Positions 48,518-59,068 of a stretch of 64,000 bases of DNA are shown here, piece by piece (position 1 is the stretch's first letter; each line of letters opens with the position of its first letter). This DNA comes from an uncultured Geobacteraceae bacterium (GTDB taxonomy: Bacteria > Desulfobacterota > Desulfuromonadia > Geobacterales > Pseudopelobacteraceae). Position numbers and translations under genes: made by a program. The notes below the pieces were generated by a model. That model saw only the letters and a list, made by a program, of their open reading frames with translations, was not told where the DNA came from and searched no databases. Location: positions 1 to 64,000 of the forward strand of contig CAIUSO010000166.1 of the NCBI GenBank assembly GCA_903901875.1. Direction: 5' to 3'.

Positions 48518-50848
48518 TTAGATGAGGCTTTTTATTACTTCTAATAAATTACTCTGGTCAAAGTTTCCCTTTACAATATAGGCACTAGCCCCGACATCTA
48601 TGCCACGCTCACGATCTTCCCGCGAGGCGAGAGCGGTTACCAGTACCACAGGCAATTCACTCATATTCTTGTCGGATCGGATTCTGGCCGTGAGGTCAAA
48701 GCCGTTCATACGCGGCATTTCCACGTCGGAAATGACGATATCGAAGCGTCCTTTTTCAAGCTTGGTACAGGCATCCATACCGTCCACTGCAGTCACCACA
48801 TTATACCCGGTAGATTCCAGAATATTCTTGAGCAGGGTCCGGGTGGTGATGGAGTCTTCTACAACCAGGACGGAGGACACCCGGACCTCATGCTCAGCCC
48901 TGTCTGTCTCCGCGTTACGCCCGGACGAATATGTCGCAATCTTTACCGCAGATTTCAGCAGATCGGTCACGTTGAGGATTGGTGCAACACGTCCGTTGCC
49001 GAGGATTGTGGCACCGGCCACGTTGCGTACCCGGGAAAGCTGTCGTCCCAGCCCTTTTTGCAGCACCTCCAGTTCACCCAAAACCTCATCGACCTGAAAG
49101 GCGATTCGTAAATTGGCTGCGGCAAGGATCACCAGATGCTGCAGATTACATGCATTCTTTTTGGCCCGTGGGGAGGAAAGCTCCAATACGTCTGCAAGGC
49201 GAGTGAGTGAGACCACTTCTCCGTCAATACTGATGGTCTCGCGGTTCTCTACGGTCTTGACCTCCTCTGTTTTGATCCTCACTACCCGGACGACGTGCAT
49301 CGCAGGCAGTACGAACAGTTGTTCGCCAAGCCGGACAAGTACACCGCGCAGTGTTGCAACAGTCAACGGCAGTAACATGCGAAAAGTAGTCCCGGAATCG
49401 AGCGCTGTTTCGACGTTGATTGTTCCTCCCATATTCTCCACCTTTTCACGGACAATAGCCAGACCCAGCCCCCGACCGGAAATTTCGGTGATGATCGGGC
49501 TTGTGGTGATGCCCGAATGAAAGATGTGCCCGAGAAGTTCGTTGCTGCCAAGCTCAGCCACTGTCGCCCTTGATAGCGTACCGAGCTTCAACAGTGCCGT
49601 CCTGACGGCCTCAGTGGAAATACCACCACCATCATCGGTAACAGTCAGTTCCACTTTGTCGTCCAATGGAGAGACTGCCACCCTGATTGTTCCGCATGGT
49701 GGTTTTCCTTTCTCCTGACGCAGTAAGGAACTCTCAATACCGTGATCAATGCAGTTCCGTACCAAATGCACCAGTGGATCCTTCATTTCCTCCAGGATGC
49801 GCCGGTCGATTTCTATATCCCCCCCACAGATCGTCATTTCAATTTTTTTGCCGTTCTCGCGCGAGAGGTCCCGGACTATCTTGGGCAGGATCTCCAGTAA
49901 CGATGAAAAAGGAAACATAAGGACTTTTTTCATGTCACTCAGCAGGTTGTTTACCATGCTGCCCACTATTCGATCGTCTTGTTCGGCCGACATAACCTCA
50001 GACTTGAGCCGTGTCTCTAAAGATTTTATAAACGTGCTGTTCCAATCCATAAAATCCAGAACCCGTGCCAGAGCGTTCTTTATATCAGTTGATCCAGGGC
50101 TTTGCCTGCGATCTCCGTCCGGAAATATAGCTGGCCCGATCTCGTGAAGTAATGGTTGTACCCTGGCCCACTCCTTATTCCACGTGCTGAAAACCGCACT
50201 GGCGGAGCGCATGTCAAGAACACGCTGAGATGAAGCAAGCTTGGCAGAGAGCATCTCTTCCGTTTGCAGAAGCACTGATGTCAGTCTGGCGGTGGAAACC
50301 CTGACCGTATCCGGCATGACTGAGGGAGCAGTGCCTTTTTGTATCGAAGAATCAGTAACACGTGGAGCAGCGGTGTCTCTCTGAATAGTTGGATCGGGGT
50401 GCGGGGGAACCAAGGTAGCTTCTTGGGGTGGCTCTGTGCCCACAGCCTCTTCAAGTTGCTTGATGAGTTGTCGTTGCCGGATCTTGTCTTCATGGGTTCG
50501 TGCCGTGCCAACATCGGTAAGAACATGGCCGAGAAAATCCACTACCTCCTGGAGGAGATCGAAGAGGCCGGCGGATGATTGGAGCGCATTTTTTTTAAAC
50601 GCAGCGAAGATATCTTCCAGTGATTGGCAGAGAGCTTCAATCTCAACCTGGTTGACAGCTCGTGATGCTCCCTTCAGGCTGTGGGCTTCACGGTAAATAG
50701 TCTCGACAAGTTTTGCACGGTTCTCAGGTGTCTCTTCATTCTTTTCCAATTTGAGGAGGCCCGAGCACAGTCCTTGAAGATGTTCTTGAGCTTCACCTGC
50801 GAAGGTGACAAGAAGTCTCTTCAAAAAATCAGCATCCTGATCGATCAC
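48518..50848 (-). CDS. cheA: Hybrid CheA-type kinase (Hpt-P4-CheW-REC)
   Basis: 776 residues. The Hpt domain has H56 (REAHSLKGASRAV). After a variable linker come the dimerisation and HATPase regions (LVRNCIDHGIE, GGGIST, GRGLGLAIVREKVENMGG), a CheW-like P5 (about 505-640) and a C-terminal receiver (DIVISDVEMPRMNGFD). Such CheA-CheY fusions occur in alternative (non-flagellar) chemosensory systems. GTG 50848 is the start, with GGGAG 8 bases upstream. The built-in receiver may act as a phosphate sink or relay to the next gene. Confidence 0.92.
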   Translation of the reverse strand: MIDQDADFLKRLLVTFAGEAQEHLQGLCSGLLKLEKNEETPENRAKLVETIYREAHSLKGASRAVNQVEIEALCQSLEDIFAAFKKNALQSSAGLFDLLQEVVDFLGHVLTDVGTARTHEDKIRQRQLIKQLEEAVGTEPPQEATLVPPHPDPTIQRDTAAPRVTDSSIQKGTAPSVMPDTVRVSTARLTSVLLQTEEMLSAKLASSQRVLDMRSASAVFSTWNKEWARVQPLLHEIGPAIFPDGDRRQSPGSTDIKNALARVLDFMDWNSTFIKSLETRLKSEVMSAEQDDRIVGSMVNNLLSDMKKVLMFPFSSLLEILPKIVRDLSRENGKKIEMTICGGDIEIDRRILEEMKDPLVHLVRNCIDHGIESSLLRQEKGKPPCGTIRVAVSPLDDKVELTVTDDGGGISTEAVRTALLKLGTLSRATVAELGSNELLGHIFHSGITTSPIITEISGRGLGLAIVREKVENMGGTINVETALDSGTTFRMLLPLTVATLRGVLVRLGEQLFVLPAMHVVRVVRIKTEEVKTVENRETISIDGEVVSLTRLADVLELSSPRAKKNACNLQHLVILAAANLRIAFQVDEVLGELEVLQKGLGRQLSRVRNVAGATILGNGRVAPILNVTDLLKSAVKIATYSSGRNAETDRAEHEVRVSSVLVVEDSITTRTLLKNILESTGYNVVTAVDGMDACTKLEKGRFDIVISDVEMPRMNGFDLTARIRSDKNMSELPVVLVTALASREDRERGIDVGASAYIVKGNFDQSNLLEVIKSLI

Positions 50849-50876
50849 CGTATGTCTCCCTTTTGCCGTTCAATTG

Positions 50877-52721
50877 TCAGACCTTGAACTGCGATACAAA
50901 ATTCTTCAGCTTCTGTCCCAGGTCATGCAACCCCTGTACGGTAACCTCCACTTTTCTCATGCCGGAGACGTTCTCCTCGCTGGCCTGCCGGATGCTTACC
51001 ATGGCAATCGCTACCTGCTCCATGCCAATCAACTGCTGTTGGCTGGACGACGTGATCTGAAGAGCAGCCTGGGCCGATTCATCGATACTTTCGCTCATCT
51101 GACGGATCGCCTCACCGGCATCCTTGGACTGTTTAACACCCTCTTCCACCGCTTTGTTACCCTGTTCCGTGGCTAATACAGCCGCGTTTGTTGCCTTCTG
51201 AATGTCGTTCAAGATGGCGCGTACTTGGTTCGTTGCCTCCTTGGACTGTTCCGCCAGTCTTTTCACTTCCTGGGCCACCACAGCAAATCCTTTTCCATAT
51301 TCCCCAGCTTTTGCCGCCTCAATGGCGGCGTTTACCGCCAGAAGGTTCGACTGTTCGGCCAGGTCGTTGACCGTTGCAATGATATCCCCGATAGTCAGGC
51401 TCTGTTCGGAGAGACGCACAATGCTCTCCGCAATTGACTCCACTTGAGTCTGAATATGGTTAATGCCGGTGATCGAAGCATCCACCGCTTTTCGACCTCC
51501 TTGGGCGATCTGCAAAGCTCTTTGGGCGGTATCCGAGACACTCAACGCATTCTGGTTGGCCACAAGGGCGGTCTGCTTCACCTCTTCAACGGAGGTAGTT
51601 GTCTCGATTACTGCTGCAGAAGTCTGAATTGCGCCGGATGCAACCTGGGTGGTTGATGCGATGATCTCGTAGGAAGAGACGGTGAGGACATTGACACCCT
51701 CAATGATCTCTTGTATGAGCTCCTTGAGGTTTTTAGTCATGGTAGCCAGTGCGTTCCCCATAACGTCCCTCTCCGATTGGGGGACTACCGTGACCGAAAG
51801 GTTTCCTATGGCTATTTGGCGAGCAATTTCCGCAGAAACAGTGAGACTGACCACCATTTTAGCCAGTGCGTTCCCCATTACATCCTTCTCTGACTTGGGA
51901 GTTACCGTGACCGAAAGGTCGCCGGTGGCAATCTGCTGAGCCATCTCTGCCATTTCGCTCAGAGAACTCCCCATCCTGCTGAAAGCCTGTGCAAGCATCC
52001 CGATCTCGTCTTTCCTTTGGCTGGCAAAAACGCGTACATCCAGTTCACCGTCTGCAATCTGTTCTGCAATGACGGTTATGTCTTTAAGCGGCTGGACTAT
52101 GTTCCTTGAAATGAAAAAGCTGACGGCACAGAGGCAAAGTAAGGTAATGGGGATACCGAATACAACTGAGGCGATAGTAATTCGGGAGCTCCAGAGTGAC
52201 TCATTGATACGCTGCTGTAACAGCAGGTTTTCCTCGGTTTCAACATCAACCATTACTTTGCGGATGTCGTCCATGACCTTTTTACCCATGTTTGTACGCA
52301 TGATCTGCAAGGATGCTTCGAAGCCTTTGCTCTTGCGTTGACTGATTGTCTCCCGCATTTCTGTAATCCGTTCGATTATGAGTGGATCCAAGAGGTCAAG
52401 TCTGTGTTGCTGCCCCTTATTATCTGCGGTCAGTTTCCTGAGATTTACTCTTTCCTGGTCGAGCACCTTGAGTGCATTGTTATACGGCTCAAGATAGGCA
52501 TCTTCTCCCGTCAAGAGGTAGCCGCGTTGTCCGGTTTCTGCATTTATCAGGGCGGAAAGTACGTTATCGTGTGTTTCAAGCACCGTGTACGTATGAACAA
52601 CCCACTCAGAGTTCTTGATGAATCCCGCCGTGCTCAGGTACGTTACTATGCCGATAATTACAAGGCTCACAAGCGCGAGGCCAAAACCTCCGCTTATCTT
52701 TTTTCCCACAGTCCATTTCAT
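50877..52721 (-). CDS. mcp: Methyl-accepting chemotaxis protein with CHASE3 and multiple HAMP units
   Basis: 614 residues. N-terminal membrane helix, CHASE3-like sensor (LINAETGQRGYLLTGEDAYLEPY), second helix near 180-200, then three HAMP-like units in row. The last two repeat almost exactly at 39-codon offset (IATGDLSVTVTPKSEKDVMG, IAIGNLSVTVVPQSERDVMG). The signalling tip is typical (VNDLAEQSNLLAVNAAIEAAKAGEYGKGFAVVA). It senses a periplasmic cue and controls CheA. The duplicated HAMP units suggest lengthening by repeat expansion. It is preceded by a GGAG site and lies between cheW and cheA in the operon. Confidence 0.93.
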   Translation of the reverse strand: MKWTVGKKISGGFGLALVSLVIIGIVTYLSTAGFIKNSEWVVHTYTVLETHDNVLSALINAETGQRGYLLTGEDAYLEPYNNALKVLDQERVNLRKLTADNKGQQHRLDLLDPLIIERITEMRETISQRKSKGFEASLQIMRTNMGKKVMDDIRKVMVDVETEENLLLQQRINESLWSSRITIASVVFGIPITLLCLCAVSFFISRNIVQPLKDITVIAEQIADGELDVRVFASQRKDEIGMLAQAFSRMGSSLSEMAEMAQQIATGDLSVTVTPKSEKDVMGNALAKMVVSLTVSAEIARQIAIGNLSVTVVPQSERDVMGNALATMTKNLKELIQEIIEGVNVLTVSSYEIIASTTQVASGAIQTSAAVIETTTSVEEVKQTALVANQNALSVSDTAQRALQIAQGGRKAVDASITGINHIQTQVESIAESIVRLSEQSLTIGDIIATVNDLAEQSNLLAVNAAIEAAKAGEYGKGFAVVAQEVKRLAEQSKEATNQVRAILNDIQKATNAAVLATEQGNKAVEEGVKQSKDAGEAIRQMSESIDESAQAALQITSSSQQQLIGMEQVAIAMVSIRQASEENVSGMRKVEVTVQGLHDLGQKLKNFVSQFKV

Positions 52722-52781
52722 CAGGTAATCTCCTTTGTCACAACATCTACTGCCGTTTTAGTTCTGTCTGTCACGCACATT

Positions 52782-53339
52782 TTATACCTCATCATGGACC
52801 ACGAGATTACGATCAGAGAGGATTTTACTGCCATCGAGCACGATCAGTCGCTCATGGGTGACCCCCATCAAGTACTCGGCCCGTATCTCGGTGAGAGTTG
52901 GCAGCGACGGTAAAAGAGTCGCCCGTGGGATCCAGCGTGCGTCGATAATGGCATCTGCCAGGATGCCAAACTCCATGGTACCGTTCTGCAGGACAATGAC
53001 CCTGTTAAGGTCAGAGAGCCCTTTGTTTGCAATTTCGAAGAAGATTCGAAGGTCGATGATTGAGAGAAGCTTGCCGCGCACGTTGATGACCCCAAGCACA
53101 AACGAGGGAGTGCAGGGGAGTGGGGTGAGGTCCTTCAGAGGATACACCTCTCCTATGTAAGCAGATTCGATGGCATACCGCTCGTCGGCGAGGAGAAATT
53201 CGACGATCTCTAGCTGATCTCCTTCAGCTCCGTCTTCCACCAGTTCCTCTGCGAGGGCCACCGTCCGCGCCTTGAGAATTCGTCGCTGGTCGTCTTCGCC
53301 CGGTTTCCCGATACCACTCATCGCGTTTCTATTCATCAT
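52782..53339 (-). CDS. cheW: CheW-like coupling protein (first gene of operon)
   Basis: 185 residues. A charged N-terminal extension of about 40 residues precedes a CheW domain (LEIVEFLLADERYAIESAYIGEVYPL, FVLGVINVRGKLLSIIDLRIFFEI). It couples the adjacent MCP to CheA. ATG 53339 has AAGGAA 9 bases upstream. The operon is preceded by a sigma-54 promoter (53384-53399), so this chemosensory array is not under constitutive control. It is a second cheW, distinct from the one at 43.8 kb. Confidence 0.92.
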   Translation of the reverse strand: MMNRNAMSGIGKPGEDDQRRILKARTVALAEELVEDGAEGDQLEIVEFLLADERYAIESAYIGEVYPLKDLTPLPCTPSFVLGVINVRGKLLSIIDLRIFFEIANKGLSDLNRVIVLQNGTMEFGILADAIIDARWIPRATLLPSLPTLTEIRAEYLMGVTHERLIVLDGSKILSDRNLVVHDEV

Positions 53340-54184: not shown

Positions 54185-56245
54185 ATGATGAATCAAAAAC
54201 AAGCACCCTCGTCATATGGATCTTACCTTGCTGGTGCACTTTTTAGCGCATTTCTGTCATCTGCCACATGCTCTTTTGCTTTGGAAGGTTCTGCCGATGA
54301 CCTGACGAGCCTGTCGCTTGAGGCACTGATGGACATTGATGTCACTTCGGTTTCCCGCAAGCCTCAAAAGCTCGCCAATGTTGCTGCTGCTGCCTTTGTG
54401 ATTACCCAGGACGATATTCGTCGTTCAGGTGCAACTACCATCCCTGAGCTTCTTCGAATGGTGCCGGGTGTTCAGGTTGCCCGGATAGATTCCAACAAAT
54501 GGGCCGTTTCCATCCGAGGGTTTAACGGTCGGTTCTCCAACAAATTACTGGTGTTAAAGGACGGTCGTAGCATTTATACGCCGCTTTTTTCCGGCGTCTA
54601 CTGGGAGCAGCAGGATACCCCCCTTGAAGATATTGAGCGGATCGAGGTTATTCGTGGTCCAGGAGCAGCCTTGTGGGGTGCCAATGCGGTTAATGGTGTG
54701 ATTAACATTATTACCAAATCAGCTAACAATACGAAAGGCGGTCTGGTGTCAGCAGGGGGAGGAACTTTTGAACAGGGTTTTGGCACCCTGCGTTATGGAA
54801 CGTCACTTGGCAAAGATACCGATGTGAGAGTCTATGGCAACTACGCCAATCGGGGGGGCGGCACGTACAGTAGCGGAAATAACAGTTATGATTCCTGGCA
54901 AAGCGGTTCTACTGGTTTCAGAATGGACAGTCATGTATCCAGGCAGGATACATTGACTCTTCAAGGTGATTTTTTCTCCGGCTCTTTTGATGAAAATTAC
55001 ACTCTGTATAAACTCCCTACCAGCGGTGATCCCAGTTATTCCTGGTCTCAAGACAGTAGTTCAAAAGCCCAGAGCGGCAACATTCTGACCCGTTGGCAGC
55101 GCGTCATATCGGATACGGAGGACTTTTCACTCCAACTTTACTACGACCGTTATCACCGTGACATGCTGGTTCTCGGCGAAGCTCGTGATACGGTAGATCT
55201 TGATTTTCAGCATCGGCTCACCCTGGGGGACAGGCAGGATCTGATCTGGGGCCTGGGCGTACGCTATACACATGATGATCTCACCAATTCACCATTTATC
55301 ATTTTTACAAACAATAGCGAATGGACCAGCCTGTTCAGCCTCTTCATACATGACGAGATTACGTTACTACCCGGAAAACTGTCATTAATTTTTGGATCGC
55401 GCCTTGAACACAATGATTACAGTAAGTTCGAGATCCAACCCAATGCCCGCTTACTCTGGACGCCATCTCCCCACAACACCTTCTGGGGCTCGGTCTCCCG
55501 TGCCGTGCGCACACCATCACGGGGTGATGAAAATATCGAGTATCGGTACAAAACCCTGTCACCCCAGGAGACAGGCGCACCGCTTCCATTACGCGTGGAA
55601 ATTGATGGCCATAACGGATTTACATCAGAGACCGTCATCGCCTATGAACTGGGCTATCGCACGCAACCCCTTTCTTATATGACGGTTGACACCTCTTTTT
55701 TCTATAACCAGTATAACAAGCTGCGGGTACGAGACGAGGGAACTCCGGTCCCAGAGACACCGACAAACCTGGTACTGTACTATCCACTTGCCAACAGTAT
55801 GCACGGCTTCACCTACGGTGCAGAACTTTCCACCACGTGGACTCCGTTGGACTGGTGGCGCCTGCAGGTAATGTACAGCTACCTTTACAGTGCCATGACT
55901 CTGGATAACGGCAGCACCGACGAAACCAACCGATCCAATGCAGCTGATGGTTCACCCCGTCATCAAGGTTCGCTCCGTTCAGGCTTTGACCTTGGCAAAC
56001 AGGTAGAGCTGGATTTCTGGCTGCGAGCTGTAGACCGGGTACAGTCTATTGACAGTGTTACCATCCCCGGTTATCTGACCGCTGATTTAAGATTGGCCTG
56101 GAAACCGGTTAAAAATCTCGAATGTACGCTGGTAGGGCAGAACCTGTTAAGGAACCGACATCCTGAATATGTTCCGGAGTTCATTAATACGACGGCGTCG
56201 GAGATACCACGCAGCGTATATGGTAAGGTGACGTGGAAATTTTGA
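54185..56245 (+). CDS. TonB-dependent outer-membrane receptor
   Basis: 686 residues. A signal peptide (AGALFSAFLSSATCSFA) is followed by an N-terminal segment (LTSLSLEALMDIDVTSVSRKPQ) typical of a receptor subgroup linked to c-di-GMP genes. The plug domain (AAAFVITQDDIRRSGATTIPELLRMVPGVQVARI, IERIEVIRGPGAALWGANAVNGVINIITK) and a 22-strand-type barrel ending in a C-terminal aromatic (VTWKF) come next. It imports an unknown ligand with TonB/ExbBD. ATG 54185 has AGGAG upstream; an earlier in-frame start does not. It overlaps the YfiR-like gene by 13 bp. Confidence 0.93.
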   Translation: MMNQKQAPSSYGSYLAGALFSAFLSSATCSFALEGSADDLTSLSLEALMDIDVTSVSRKPQKLANVAAAAFVITQDDIRRSGATTIPELLRMVPGVQVARIDSNKWAVSIRGFNGRFSNKLLVLKDGRSIYTPLFSGVYWEQQDTPLEDIERIEVIRGPGAALWGANAVNGVINIITKSANNTKGGLVSAGGGTFEQGFGTLRYGTSLGKDTDVRVYGNYANRGGGTYSSGNNSYDSWQSGSTGFRMDSHVSRQDTLTLQGDFFSGSFDENYTLYKLPTSGDPSYSWSQDSSSKAQSGNILTRWQRVISDTEDFSLQLYYDRYHRDMLVLGEARDTVDLDFQHRLTLGDRQDLIWGLGVRYTHDDLTNSPFIIFTNNSEWTSLFSLFIHDEITLLPGKLSLIFGSRLEHNDYSKFEIQPNARLLWTPSPHNTFWGSVSRAVRTPSRGDENIEYRYKTLSPQETGAPLPLRVEIDGHNGFTSETVIAYELGYRTQPLSYMTVDTSFFYNQYNKLRVRDEGTPVPETPTNLVLYYPLANSMHGFTYGAELSTTWTPLDWWRLQVMYSYLYSAMTLDNGSTDETNRSNAADGSPRHQGSLRSGFDLGKQVELDFWLRAVDRVQSIDSVTIPGYLTADLRLAWKPVKNLECTLVGQNLLRNRHPEYVPEFINTTASEIPRSVYGKVTWKF

Positions 56246-56790
56246 GAACTCCGCGCCCGTCATATTTCGGTTTGTTCCTGCTGCTCTGTCTGTATGGAGT
56301 TTCCGTACTACCTGCTTATGCTGAGTCAGGGGAATATCAAGTTAAATCAGCAATGATCTATAATTTCACACTCTTCATGGATTGGCCAGAAGATGCTCTG
56401 CCTGCTTCAGCGACACAGATGACGGTTTGTGTTGCCGGAAAAGGACCACTGGTTGCGGTTGTGGATCATTTGCAGGAAAAAAAGGCAAAAGGTAAGACGA
56501 TCACCGTACGTAAGGTGACACCCACCGGTGGCTTAGCAGGTTGTCAGGTACTGGTTCTGGGAGATCTCGACAAGTCCACCACGAGCGGTTTGCTGGAGCG
56601 TAGTCGCACCAGTGCAATTCTCACGGTTGCCGAGAGTGCCGGTTTTGCCGGTTCTGGAGGTGTTGTCGGCTTTGTGCTGCTGGGGAGCAAAGTTCGCTTT
56701 GAAATAAACCCGGCAGCTGCCCAGCGGCACCGGATTAGAGTCAGCTCCCAATTGCTTAAACTTGCTCAGATCGTGCGTGATGAGCCATGA
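56233..56790 (+). CDS. YfiR-family (DUF4154) periplasmic protein
   Basis: 185 residues. A signal peptide (FGLFLLLCLYGVSVLPAYA) is followed by the YfiR fold (YQVKSAMIYNFTLFMDWPEDAL, CVAGKGPLVAVVDHLQ, ILTVAESAGFAGSGGVVGFVLLGSKVRFEINPAAA). In Pseudomonas YfiR inhibits the diguanylate cyclase YfiN in the periplasm. Here the next gene encodes a membrane GGDEF-EAL protein, so the same logic is likely. GTG 56233 is chosen as start, inside the TonB gene end. ATGA overlap joins it to the next gene. Confidence 0.9.
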   Translation: MEILRTPRPSYFGLFLLLCLYGVSVLPAYAESGEYQVKSAMIYNFTLFMDWPEDALPASATQMTVCVAGKGPLVAVVDHLQEKKAKGKTITVRKVTPTGGLAGCQVLVLGDLDKSTTSGLLERSRTSAILTVAESAGFAGSGGVVGFVLLGSKVRFEINPAAAQRHRIRVSSQLLKLAQIVRDEP

Positions 56791-58868
56791 AACGCTTCGT
56801 CAAAGCATATCTGATTAACAGCTCCATCAGACGTAAGCTGACGTCCCTTATCATGCTTACCTGTGGTGTGGTTCTTCTGTCAACGACCGTGGTGTTTACC
56901 GTGAAGGAAGCAGTTTCACTGATCGGCGAACAGAATAGAAATCTAACTTCGCTGGCAGACATTCTCAGTAAAAACGTAACGTCGGCTATTATTTTTAATG
57001 ACCCCCAATCGGCACTGGAGACCATGAATTCACTGTCTGTCAAAACTGATATTTTGGCAGCATACATCCTTAATAACGATGCAACTATCTTCAGCAGCTA
57101 CATTGCCCGGGGAGCAAAACCAGCATCCCTGCCATTACCACAACTTCTTTCGAGTGCGACTCCCAATGCGACACAGAATGTTGTTATGCACATCAGCTTA
57201 CTATGGCAAGGGTCTGACCAGGTTAATCTGACCAGGCCGATCATACTGGATGGCAAAACAGTTGGCACGGTGGGCCTGATTGCGGATATGAGTAAATTAC
57301 GCACTCACTTGTTAAGTACCGTGCTGGTTACACTCATTATTCTGTGTCTCGCTGCAATTGCCACGTACTTTTTATCTCTCCGTCTGCAGGAAATCATTTC
57401 GGAACCGATCCTTAACTTGTCCGATGCAATGCGCCGGGTTTCCGAATCCAAGGATTTTTCCCTGAGAGTGGTAAAACCGGGGAATGATGAGATAGGAAGC
57501 CTCTACGATGGATTTAATGAGATGCTCCATGAGATAGAAGAACGCAACCTGGTATTACAACAGCGGCAGGAACATCTGCAGGAACTGGCGCATTTTGATG
57601 TATTAACCCGTCTGCCAAACAGGGTACTCTTCCGTGACCGTCTGCAACAGGCGATGAATCTGGCGGTACGTAAAGATCAACAAATAGCCGTATTGTTCCT
57701 TGACCTTGATCGTTTCAAGGACATTAACGACACCCTGGGGCACAGTATAGGTGACATGCTGTTGCAACAGGTGGCCAATAGAATGGGACTGGTGATGCGA
57801 GACTGTGACACCGTGGCCAGATTGGGCGGAGACGAATTTACTATCTTCATTCAGGACATCAAGTCTGCTGAAAACGCCTGTATGGTGGCACAGAAGCTGC
57901 TGGACCTGTTTGAAATCCCCTATTGCCTGGATGGACAGCAGGTCTATATAAGTAACAGCATTGGTATTACTCTCTTTCCTGCGGATAGTGGCAACATCGA
58001 TGAACTGCTGATGAATGCCGATATTGCCATGTATCGTGCCAAAGCCGATGGCAAAAACACCTATCGCCTTTATAATTCGGAAATGAGCCAACAGGGTACC
58101 GATCGGGTTGCACTGCAAAGCGATCTACGCTCCGCTGTTGACCAGAAACAGTTGCGCTTGCTGTATCAGCCAAAGTTCGACACCCTCTCCGGCAGAATTA
58201 TCGGTGTGGAAGCACTGATCCGGTGGCAGCACCCTGAACGCGGGCTAATCCCACCGGACCTTTTCATCCCGTTGGCGGAGGAGTCCGGCAGCATTTTTGC
58301 CATAACCGAATGGGTGCTTAACACTGCGTGCCTTCAGGCGAAGTTCTGGCACGATGCCGGATATATCGGCATAACGATGGCGGTAAACATTTCAGCCGTC
58401 AGCCTGAAGCGTAAAAACGTAGTCGCAATGGTACAGCAGGCCCTTATCAATACCGGCCTGCCACCGGGCCTGTTGGAGCTGGAACTAACTGAATCGATGC
58501 TGATCGAGAACAATCTGATGGCTGAAGAAACCCTGCGGGTGCTGAAGGATCTGGGGATTAGCATCGCTATTGATGACTTTGGCACCGGGTACTCATCACT
58601 TTCCTATCTGCACCGTTTCCCCATTGATTCCCTGAAAATTGACCGTTCCTTTGTCTGGAATATGAACCGAACCAGCAATGATCTTGCCATTGTTGTGGCC
58701 ATTATTGCAATGGCACACAGTCTGAAGCTGCAGGTAATTGCCGAAGGAGTTGAAACAGAAGAACAACTCGAAACATTGAAAACATGTGGTTGTGAGATTA
58801 TCCAGGGGTATCTTCTCAGCAAGCCCGTCGGTGCTGAGGAATTAAACGCTTTATTAAAGATGGGGTAA
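56787..58868 (+). CDS. Membrane GGDEF-EAL protein (YfiN-like sensor)
   Basis: 693 residues. An N-terminal helix, a CHASE8-like periplasmic region (LADILSKNVTSAIIFNDPQSALETMNSL), a second helix (VLVTLIILCLAAIATYFLSL) and HAMP lead to a GGDEF domain (347-351 intact) and an EAL domain (E475-A476-L477, with DDFGTGYSSLSYL). Both catalytic motifs are intact, so it may make and break c-di-GMP. The periplasmic part resembles YfiN and would be the YfiR target. TonB receptor, YfiR and this enzyme form an operon that could couple outer-membrane ligand uptake to c-di-GMP. Confidence 0.93.
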   Translation: MKRFVKAYLINSSIRRKLTSLIMLTCGVVLLSTTVVFTVKEAVSLIGEQNRNLTSLADILSKNVTSAIIFNDPQSALETMNSLSVKTDILAAYILNNDATIFSSYIARGAKPASLPLPQLLSSATPNATQNVVMHISLLWQGSDQVNLTRPIILDGKTVGTVGLIADMSKLRTHLLSTVLVTLIILCLAAIATYFLSLRLQEIISEPILNLSDAMRRVSESKDFSLRVVKPGNDEIGSLYDGFNEMLHEIEERNLVLQQRQEHLQELAHFDVLTRLPNRVLFRDRLQQAMNLAVRKDQQIAVLFLDLDRFKDINDTLGHSIGDMLLQQVANRMGLVMRDCDTVARLGGDEFTIFIQDIKSAENACMVAQKLLDLFEIPYCLDGQQVYISNSIGITLFPADSGNIDELLMNADIAMYRAKADGKNTYRLYNSEMSQQGTDRVALQSDLRSAVDQKQLRLLYQPKFDTLSGRIIGVEALIRWQHPERGLIPPDLFIPLAEESGSIFAITEWVLNTACLQAKFWHDAGYIGITMAVNISAVSLKRKNVVAMVQQALINTGLPPGLLELELTESMLIENNLMAEETLRVLKDLGISIAIDDFGTGYSSLSYLHRFPIDSLKIDRSFVWNMNRTSNDLAIVVAIIAMAHSLKLQVIAEGVETEEQLETLKTCGCEIIQGYLLSKPVGAEELNALLKMG

Positions 58869-58870
58869 TC

Positions 58871-59068
58871 ATGGAGTTAATCAATTGCAGCGAGCCGCTG
58901 CGCATCGGCGTGAAACAGTTCGATGAGGAACATTGCCATCACCTCATCGGCCACCTGACCATCAAGGTCATGGACCACCTATCCTTTGGAACGGGAATCC
59001 AGACATCCCGTACCTGCAATTGCCTCCCGAATCGCTTCTCCGTTACTCCCCACCCCCCCTGTCCATAG
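58871..59068 (+). pseudogene. Truncated bacteriohemerythrin relic
   Basis: The first ~27 residues (MELINCSEPLRIGVKQFDEEH) match the start of bacteriohemerythrins, including the Glu/His of the FDEEH motif. After about residue 28 the frame no longer resembles hemerythrin and the remaining diiron His/Glu/Asp ligands are missing. A large internal deletion or frameshift is likely. It begins 2 bp after the GGDEF-EAL gene, so it was probably part of that operon. Confidence 0.6.

Follow-up and report, generated by a model that had tools for sequence, protein, structure and literature searches.

In the YfiBNR system of Pseudomonas aeruginosa (DgcN-YfiR-YfiB in Escherichia coli), the periplasmic protein YfiR is accompanied by the lipoprotein YfiB and by a CHASE8-HAMP membrane effector whose output is GGDEF alone. 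More distant YfiR-YfiN[PAS] systems are described, in the accessible text of Malone et al. (2012, PMC3375315), as being mostly without YfiB and as carrying GGDEF-EAL, HPT or kinase outputs, and the legend of Figure S5 there has Geobacter sp. M21 among the aligned examples. Here we have analysed a window of 64,000 nucleotides, i.e., the whole stretch of positions 1 to 64,000 of contig CAIUSO010000166.1 from an uncultured Geobacteraceae bacterium, in which three overlapping genes at 54185..58868 form a related cassette. Like YfiBNR, the cassette has a protein of the YfiR family and fold and a CHASE8-HAMP membrane effector, and it keeps the YfiN docking patch together with the YfiR surface residues. 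Unlike YfiBNR, it has a TonB receptor in place of the YfiB lipoprotein, and its output is GGDEF-EAL. We consider it probable that the best explanation of this operon is a three-compartment relay, in which an outer-membrane receptor, the periplasmic YfiR and an inner-membrane effector of cyclic di-GMP (c-di-GMP) would be coupled. The features concerned are as follows.

54185..56245, + strand: TonB-type outer-membrane receptor of the TOL_0244 family, with plug and barrel (NF053590)
54302..54361, + strand: receptor N-terminal segment LTSLSLEALMDIDVTSVSRK, residues 40-59, a candidate partner-docking or TonB-box region
56242..56790, + strand: YfiR-family periplasmic protein (PF13689); TTG start preferred, GTG 56233 possible
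56689..56766, + strand: YfiR C-terminal stretch KVRFEIN...LLKLA, in which V151, F153 and L174 match P. aeruginosa YfiR
56787..58868, + strand: CHASE8-HAMP-GGDEF-EAL inner-membrane effector (Pfam domains)
56982..56996, + strand: SAIIF, effector residues 66-70, the counterpart of the YfiN AAVVF patch
57798..57839, + strand: I-site RDCD and GGDEF motif, read from the sequence
58209..58754, + strand: EAL-domain motif residues from EALIRW to EGVE, read from the sequence

The receptor frame runs from ATG 54185 to TGA 56245 and encodes 686 amino acids (aa). The mechanical start of YfiR is GTG 56233, which gives a 13 bp overlap with the receptor gene. We prefer TTG 56242, because this codon follows AAGGTGA at ~10 nt and overlaps the receptor gene by only the 4 bp TTGA. 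The effector gene starts at ATG 56787 within ATGA, again with a 4-bp overlap, and its product has 693 aa. The initial annotation had stated that all three genes overlap, and with the TTG start this holds with 4 bp at both junctions. Since other genomes show the same gene order and overlaps, it is confirmed that the three-gene arrangement is not due to chance.

YfiR is present in 30 of the 58 nearest-relative genomes (the window genome included) and in 63 of 146 genomes of the class. We have annotated 114 loci in addition to the window, largely from the same class and in most cases picked for carrying YfiR, with hidden Markov models grown from domains of the window and of one of these loci (L001). 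They include four loci fetched for receptors without YfiR and nine named loci from metagenome-assembled genomes (MAGs); two further named MAG loci duplicated members of the set and were omitted. In 109 of the loci, 115 YfiR open reading frames (ORFs) were found. A receptor gene or fragment lies within 1 kb on the same strand in 106 of the 115 cases (two of these neighbours are themselves plug-YfiR fusion remnants), a CHASE8-HAMP effector lies within 3.5 kb, likewise in 106, and both are found in 98; the order receptor-YfiR-effector is kept in 89 trios. Among the 98 junctions measured of each kind, YfiR and effector overlap in 69 (by exactly 4 bp in 55) and receptor and YfiR in 48, where the overlaps use mechanical starts and may be overstated. 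Seen from the receptor side, 52 of the 56 window-like receptors (at least 300 bits in NF053590) are accompanied by a YfiR gene of the same orientation at a distance of up to 2.5 kb, and the lower-scoring receptors, among the matches listed, have it in 21 of 94 cases, one of them a fusion remnant. The same order is also found in MAGs named Pedosphaera, Gallionellaceae and Salinisphaeraceae, and the identity of receptors to that of the window goes down to 17-24% (22 aligned receptors). Overall, the receptor-YfiR-effector trio is a conserved and widespread cassette.

The receptor product scores 81.4 bits with PF07715 (plug) and 98.1 bits with PF00593 (barrel), and it passes the NCBIfam TOL_0244 model NF053590 (667.8 bits, cut-off 645). 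The second gene product matches PF13689 (YfiR/HmsC-like) with 127.4 bits. Searching the PDB with its single sequence gave nothing, and a profile of 45 sequences (the window and relatives) matched only YfiR entries, with the best E at 8e-15. The AlphaFold model of this protein has a pLDDT (predicted local distance difference test) of 90.6. In Foldseek, its top 15 PDB matches are YfiR entries or YfiR-containing complexes, and the next-nearest folds are substrate-binding proteins (8wgl, 6k1x, 3lft). It stays below the curated sequest_YfiR cut-off (40.9 vs 85). The closest named relatives of the protein come from an uncultured Geobacteraceae MAG (93% identical) and from Geobacter sp. UBA6169 (59%). 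According to both alignments and direct reading, V151, F153 and L174 align with positions 160, 162 and 183 of P. aeruginosa YfiR. That protein has two cysteine pairs (71-110 and 145-152); C63 and C101 of the window protein correspond to Cys71 and Cys110, whereas Ala and Gly stand at the positions of Cys145 and Cys152. The roles of these residues are given in the accessible parts of PMC3375315 and PMC4655355.

For the effector, Pfam gives CHASE8 (PF17152, 58.3 bits), HAMP (PF00672, 38.2 bits), GGDEF and EAL, and the score with the DgcN/YfiN equivalog is under the cut-off (276.8 vs 325). The protein carries RDCD at 338-341, GGDEF at 347-351, EALIRW at 475-480, and NISA, ELTES, DDFGTGYSS, KIDRSF and EGVE; we take these motifs to have their usual functional meaning, with RDCD as the I-site. 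Both motif sets could be read intact from the sequence, just as the initial annotation had noted. Malone et al. (2012, PMC3375315) placed the site where YfiR is proposed to dock on YfiN at AAVVF, residues 66-70, and at exactly these numbers the window effector has SAIIF. The docking Phe is found in 90 of 90 aligned effector rows (89 distinct, the window included), whatever the output domain is, and it is the most conserved column across the periplasmic domain (effector residues 45-175). In addition, the distances among YfiR proteins and among CHASE8-HAMP regions correlate with r of 0.865 over 85 cassettes, ancestry not being controlled, and none of 999 permutations reached such a value. With the docking patch conserved in this way, we regard the step from YfiR to the effector as well supported and highly probable.

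A FastTree tree of YfiR plus CHASE8-HAMP was built for the 85 cassettes, with a long-branch warning from the tool. The tree requires at least 7 changes of output class (shuffles 25.9), and starred branches force 6 of them. For the receptor, scored as window-like or not, at least 11 changes are required (shuffles 28.4), of which 5 are forced. Since both traits change repeatedly, the YfiR-sensor core is combined with exchangeable barrels and outputs. Actually, the 98 full sets have histidine kinase (HK)-REC outputs in 41 cases, GGDEF-EAL in 37, HK in 18, GGDEF-EAL-REC in 1 and another output in 1. In other words, the outputs are exchanged among several types, and GGDEF-EAL (37 + 1 GGDEF-EAL-REC) stands beside 59 kinase forms and 1 other.

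In the proposed relay, YfiR docked on the SAIIF/Phe70 patch of CHASE8 would hold the effector in one activity state, which by analogy with YfiBNR should be the inhibited one. The receptor would stand in for YfiB. Ligand binding would expose its periplasmic N-terminal segment, which would bind and sequester YfiR, and the effector freed in this way would alter c-di-GMP. One Pal query at E 1e-3, covering the 114 loci outside the window, found no YfiB-like (OmpA/Pal-like) ORF, and because of this the receptor may occupy the place of YfiB. The initial annotation had proposed a route from the outer membrane to c-di-GMP through YfiR, set off by ligand uptake. As a route this stands as the best reading, with the docking patch kept, and ligand uptake remains a proposal; both ligand gating and the direction of the c-di-GMP change are things we can only infer.

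Concerning the N-terminal segment, a regular expression for its core matches 88 of 98 full-length YfiR-linked receptors and none of the 31 unlinked receptors (rate in shuffled sequences 8.9%), where the expression was written post hoc, after the sequences had been viewed, and the linked receptors are partly one clade. Some of the 88 matches lie beside the true motif, and several of the 10 misses are variants, others being over-long ORF starts. Earlier expressions had given 60/89 linked vs 0/31 unlinked (strict) and 20/89 vs 0/31 (stricter), and a third one, whose search span ended before the motif, gave 10/77 vs 4/31, the four being signal-peptide-like stretches. In YfiB, according to the accessible text of PMC4655355, YfiR can be bound only after the linker behind the membrane anchor has unfolded, and on the C-terminal face of YfiR a hydrophobic pocket takes up Met59. 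On these grounds, the analogy between the YfiB linker and the receptor segment seems reasonable but unproved.

On the other hand, several observations weigh against the relay. The segment is also found in 4 of 4 window-like receptors with no YfiR nearby, so that its presence does not strictly indicate a YfiR gene next door, though one of the four (L125) is at a contig end and its YfiR may sit on another contig. The association of segment and YfiR comes down to 3 independent contrasts on supported branches (p 0.25), 2.9 of which point the expected way. Between receptors and YfiR proteins, the distances are correlated (r 0.615), again with ancestry not controlled, and the receptor-YfiR contact itself we only infer. 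No receptor lies within 1 kb for 9 of the 115 YfiR genes; such cases include L084 and L126 at contig ends, the planctomycete loci L082 and L085, and L148, where the receptor follows the effector. Similarly, 9 of the 115 have no effector nearby, including the other pair of the window genome (L032). Because of the 4 of 4 receptors without YfiR, we have slightly lowered our confidence in the relay and in the wider recruitment reading given further below, and have slightly raised the importer explanation considered below.

The question of import concerns the rest of the genome, assembled to 4.3 Mb in 169 contigs. Plug, barrel and TOL_0244 searches of it each give two receptors, both adjoining YfiR. 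The single ExbD match is inside a cluster on contig C35 (L112) which we take to be tolQ-tolR-tolA-tolB-pal. TonB_C is matched once and partially, in a 273-aa protein on contig C38 (L111) whose adjoining gene is presumably cobyrinate-synthase-like. MotA/ExbB has three matches, namely in the L112 cluster, in a 250-aa frame that we take to be probably MotA, and in a 568-aa frame. A dedicated Ton motor (an ExbB-ExbD pair) was not found in this genome, of which the assembly may be incomplete; TolQR may serve the receptor instead.

It is rather unlikely, in our judgement, that the receptor is an importer only, which would deliver a ligand bound by YfiR so that loaded YfiR regulates the effector with no contact between receptor and YfiR. 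Substrate-binding proteins do regulate chemoreceptors, and the nearest non-YfiR folds of the YfiR model are of this kind (8wgl, 6k1x, 3lft); moreover, a sister arrangement described below places PF04392 binding proteins between receptor and sensor. However, we know of no ligand for YfiR, and energised import is uncertain, with ExbD found once in a tol-pal-like cluster and TonB_C once and partially. The exchange of receptor types while the YfiR-CHASE8 core stays also disfavours a YfiR pocket tuned to one ligand. Even less can be said for co-transcription alone, i.e., genes kept together for regulation or transfer with no signalling from receptor to YfiR. YfiR-effector pairs without a receptor exist, but the order recurs in the Pedosphaera, Gallionellaceae and Salinisphaeraceae MAGs despite 17-24% receptor identity, and we hold this explanation to be improbable. 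A further alternative is compatible with the relay and has nearly an even chance: the trio does signal in this way, but one of the two output halves, GGDEF or EAL, serves for regulation only, so that the enzyme would be either simply a phosphodiesterase or simply a cyclase. In its favour, the NCBIfam model that scores best with the GGDEF-EAL portion is the phosphodiesterase DibA, far under its cut-off (516 vs 980); against it, the motif sets of both halves are intact.

The sister arrangement comes from 15 loci of receptors without YfiR, taken with ~5 kb on each side. Ten of them were picked for an ORF of 282-334 aa adjoining the receptor (L194, L196, L198, L199, L200, L201, L203, L204, L206 and L207), and in all ten this ORF is PF04392 over the cut-off; the test left out the adjoining ORFs of L195 and L202, and the scan left out L197, L205 and L208. 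Of the sensors next to these, seven were tested, five with kinase domains, one (L200) with a methyl-accepting chemotaxis protein (MCP) signalling domain and one with HAMP only, and HAMP is over the cut-off in 5 of the 7. We take the structures 3lft and 3lkv to be of the PF04392 type. Both are matched by the window YfiR model in Foldseek (E 0.002 and 0.006), and both are named as fold relatives of YfiR in the accessible text of PMC4655355. A PF04392 gene thus adjoins the receptor and is in several cases followed by a HAMP kinase or chemoreceptor gene, which suggests a broader class of cassettes composed of receptor, periplasmic relay and sensor.

It is possible, though we consider it doubtful, that TonB receptors with different barrels have been recruited repeatedly as ligand-gated YfiB substitutes, with the short segment L-E-x-L-M-x3-V docking YfiR, and that a parallel class of receptors, with a different N-terminal segment, acts on HAMP kinases or chemoreceptors via PF04392 proteins, whose fold would be related to that of YfiR. 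Together these would make a general signalling class without STN, and perhaps without energised import. If the relay is true, an extracellular ligand would be able to control c-di-GMP or kinase output while staying outside the inner membrane, and the YfiR-YfiN systems without YfiB that Malone et al. described would have a proposed input. The relay would also suggest a mainly sensory role for some of the proteins annotated as TonB transporters.

Some other arrangements and neighbours have been observed. The second pair of the window genome (L032, contig C61) is a receptor-YfiR pair with no adjoining CHASE8 effector, and a hybrid kinase gene converges on it. In L051:3326-11042, two receptor-YfiR pairs are followed by one sensor, and L136 and L145 show receptor-YfiR-sensor-receptor arrays. 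L118, L122 and L123 have window-like receptors with the segment and no YfiR gene in the surrounding 9.5-10 kb. The in-frame plug-YfiR fusions L121:5549-6430 and L124:4770-6143 were considered as evidence of interaction and rejected; one starts inside the plug and both are without most of the barrel, and we regard them as remnants of deletions or errors of assembly.

In the window, the scanned neighbours of the cassette are CheW and enoyl-CoA hydratase according to Pfam. Directly 3' of the cassette, at 58871-59067, is a short frame with no Pfam match, starting with FDEEHCHHLIGHL; this start presumably resembles bacteriohemerythrin, and the frame is probably a gene remnant. Divergently upstream, at 48518-53339, are genes that we take to encode a CheA-like hybrid and a chemoreceptor, as well as CheW (by Pfam). 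They are probably not part of the cassette, as in the 93% relative (L068/L078) a GGDEF gene takes their place upstream; the L068 contig is only 7.6 kb, and chemotaxis genes are not seen beside its cassette. Rfam finds no RNA element at gathering scores in the whole window, and a promoter and terminator scan gave no excess over shuffles (8 vs 8.1; 3 vs 5.6).

Compared with known systems, the cassette is close to the NCBIfam set of TOL_0244, TOL_0243 YfiR-like and HK_near_YfiR_like, in which its receptor is over the cut-off. It differs in that its YfiR reaches 122.4 against the NF053591 cut-off of 125, and the sensor half of its effector 170.6 against the NF053592 kinase cut-off of 194, with GGDEF-EAL as output. 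The NF053591 cut-off is exceeded by the YfiR proteins of two cassettes with other receptor types (L047 with 131.3 and L036 with 143.7). In systems of the FecA-FecR type, an outer-membrane receptor likewise signals inward. Here, unlike in FecA, the receptor gives no match to the STN domain at E up to 0.001 in the Pfam scan, its periplasmic neighbour is YfiR, and the cassette has no sigma regulator.

OmpS of Alcanivorax dieselolei is also a TonB receptor and is said to sense alkanes and trigger chemotaxis (PMC6304351, accessible text). In the same text, TOL_0244 of Thalassolituus rises sevenfold on the n-C28 alkane vs Tween 80, and its similarity to OmpS, which is called essential there for detecting alkanes, is given as 40.3%; OmpS is mentioned as well in the accessible parts of PMC5174103 and PMC9788540. 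By this analogy, alkanes may be considered as ligand of the receptor, as a lead only.

The initial annotation had stressed that the GGDEF-EAL enzyme is unlike the GGDEF-only YfiN. This contrast holds but is not new, as the accessible text of PMC3375315 reports such outputs for distant Yfi operons. Overall, modular YfiR-YfiN systems with GGDEF-EAL outputs (Malone et al. 2012) and NCBIfam families naming this trio are already known. The main text of PMC3375315, as far as accessible, has no mention of TonB, and within the open-access literature we have identified no paper with a TonB receptor as the input of a YfiR system. The cassette, known here from its sequence, is thus very probably a variant of the known Yfi system.

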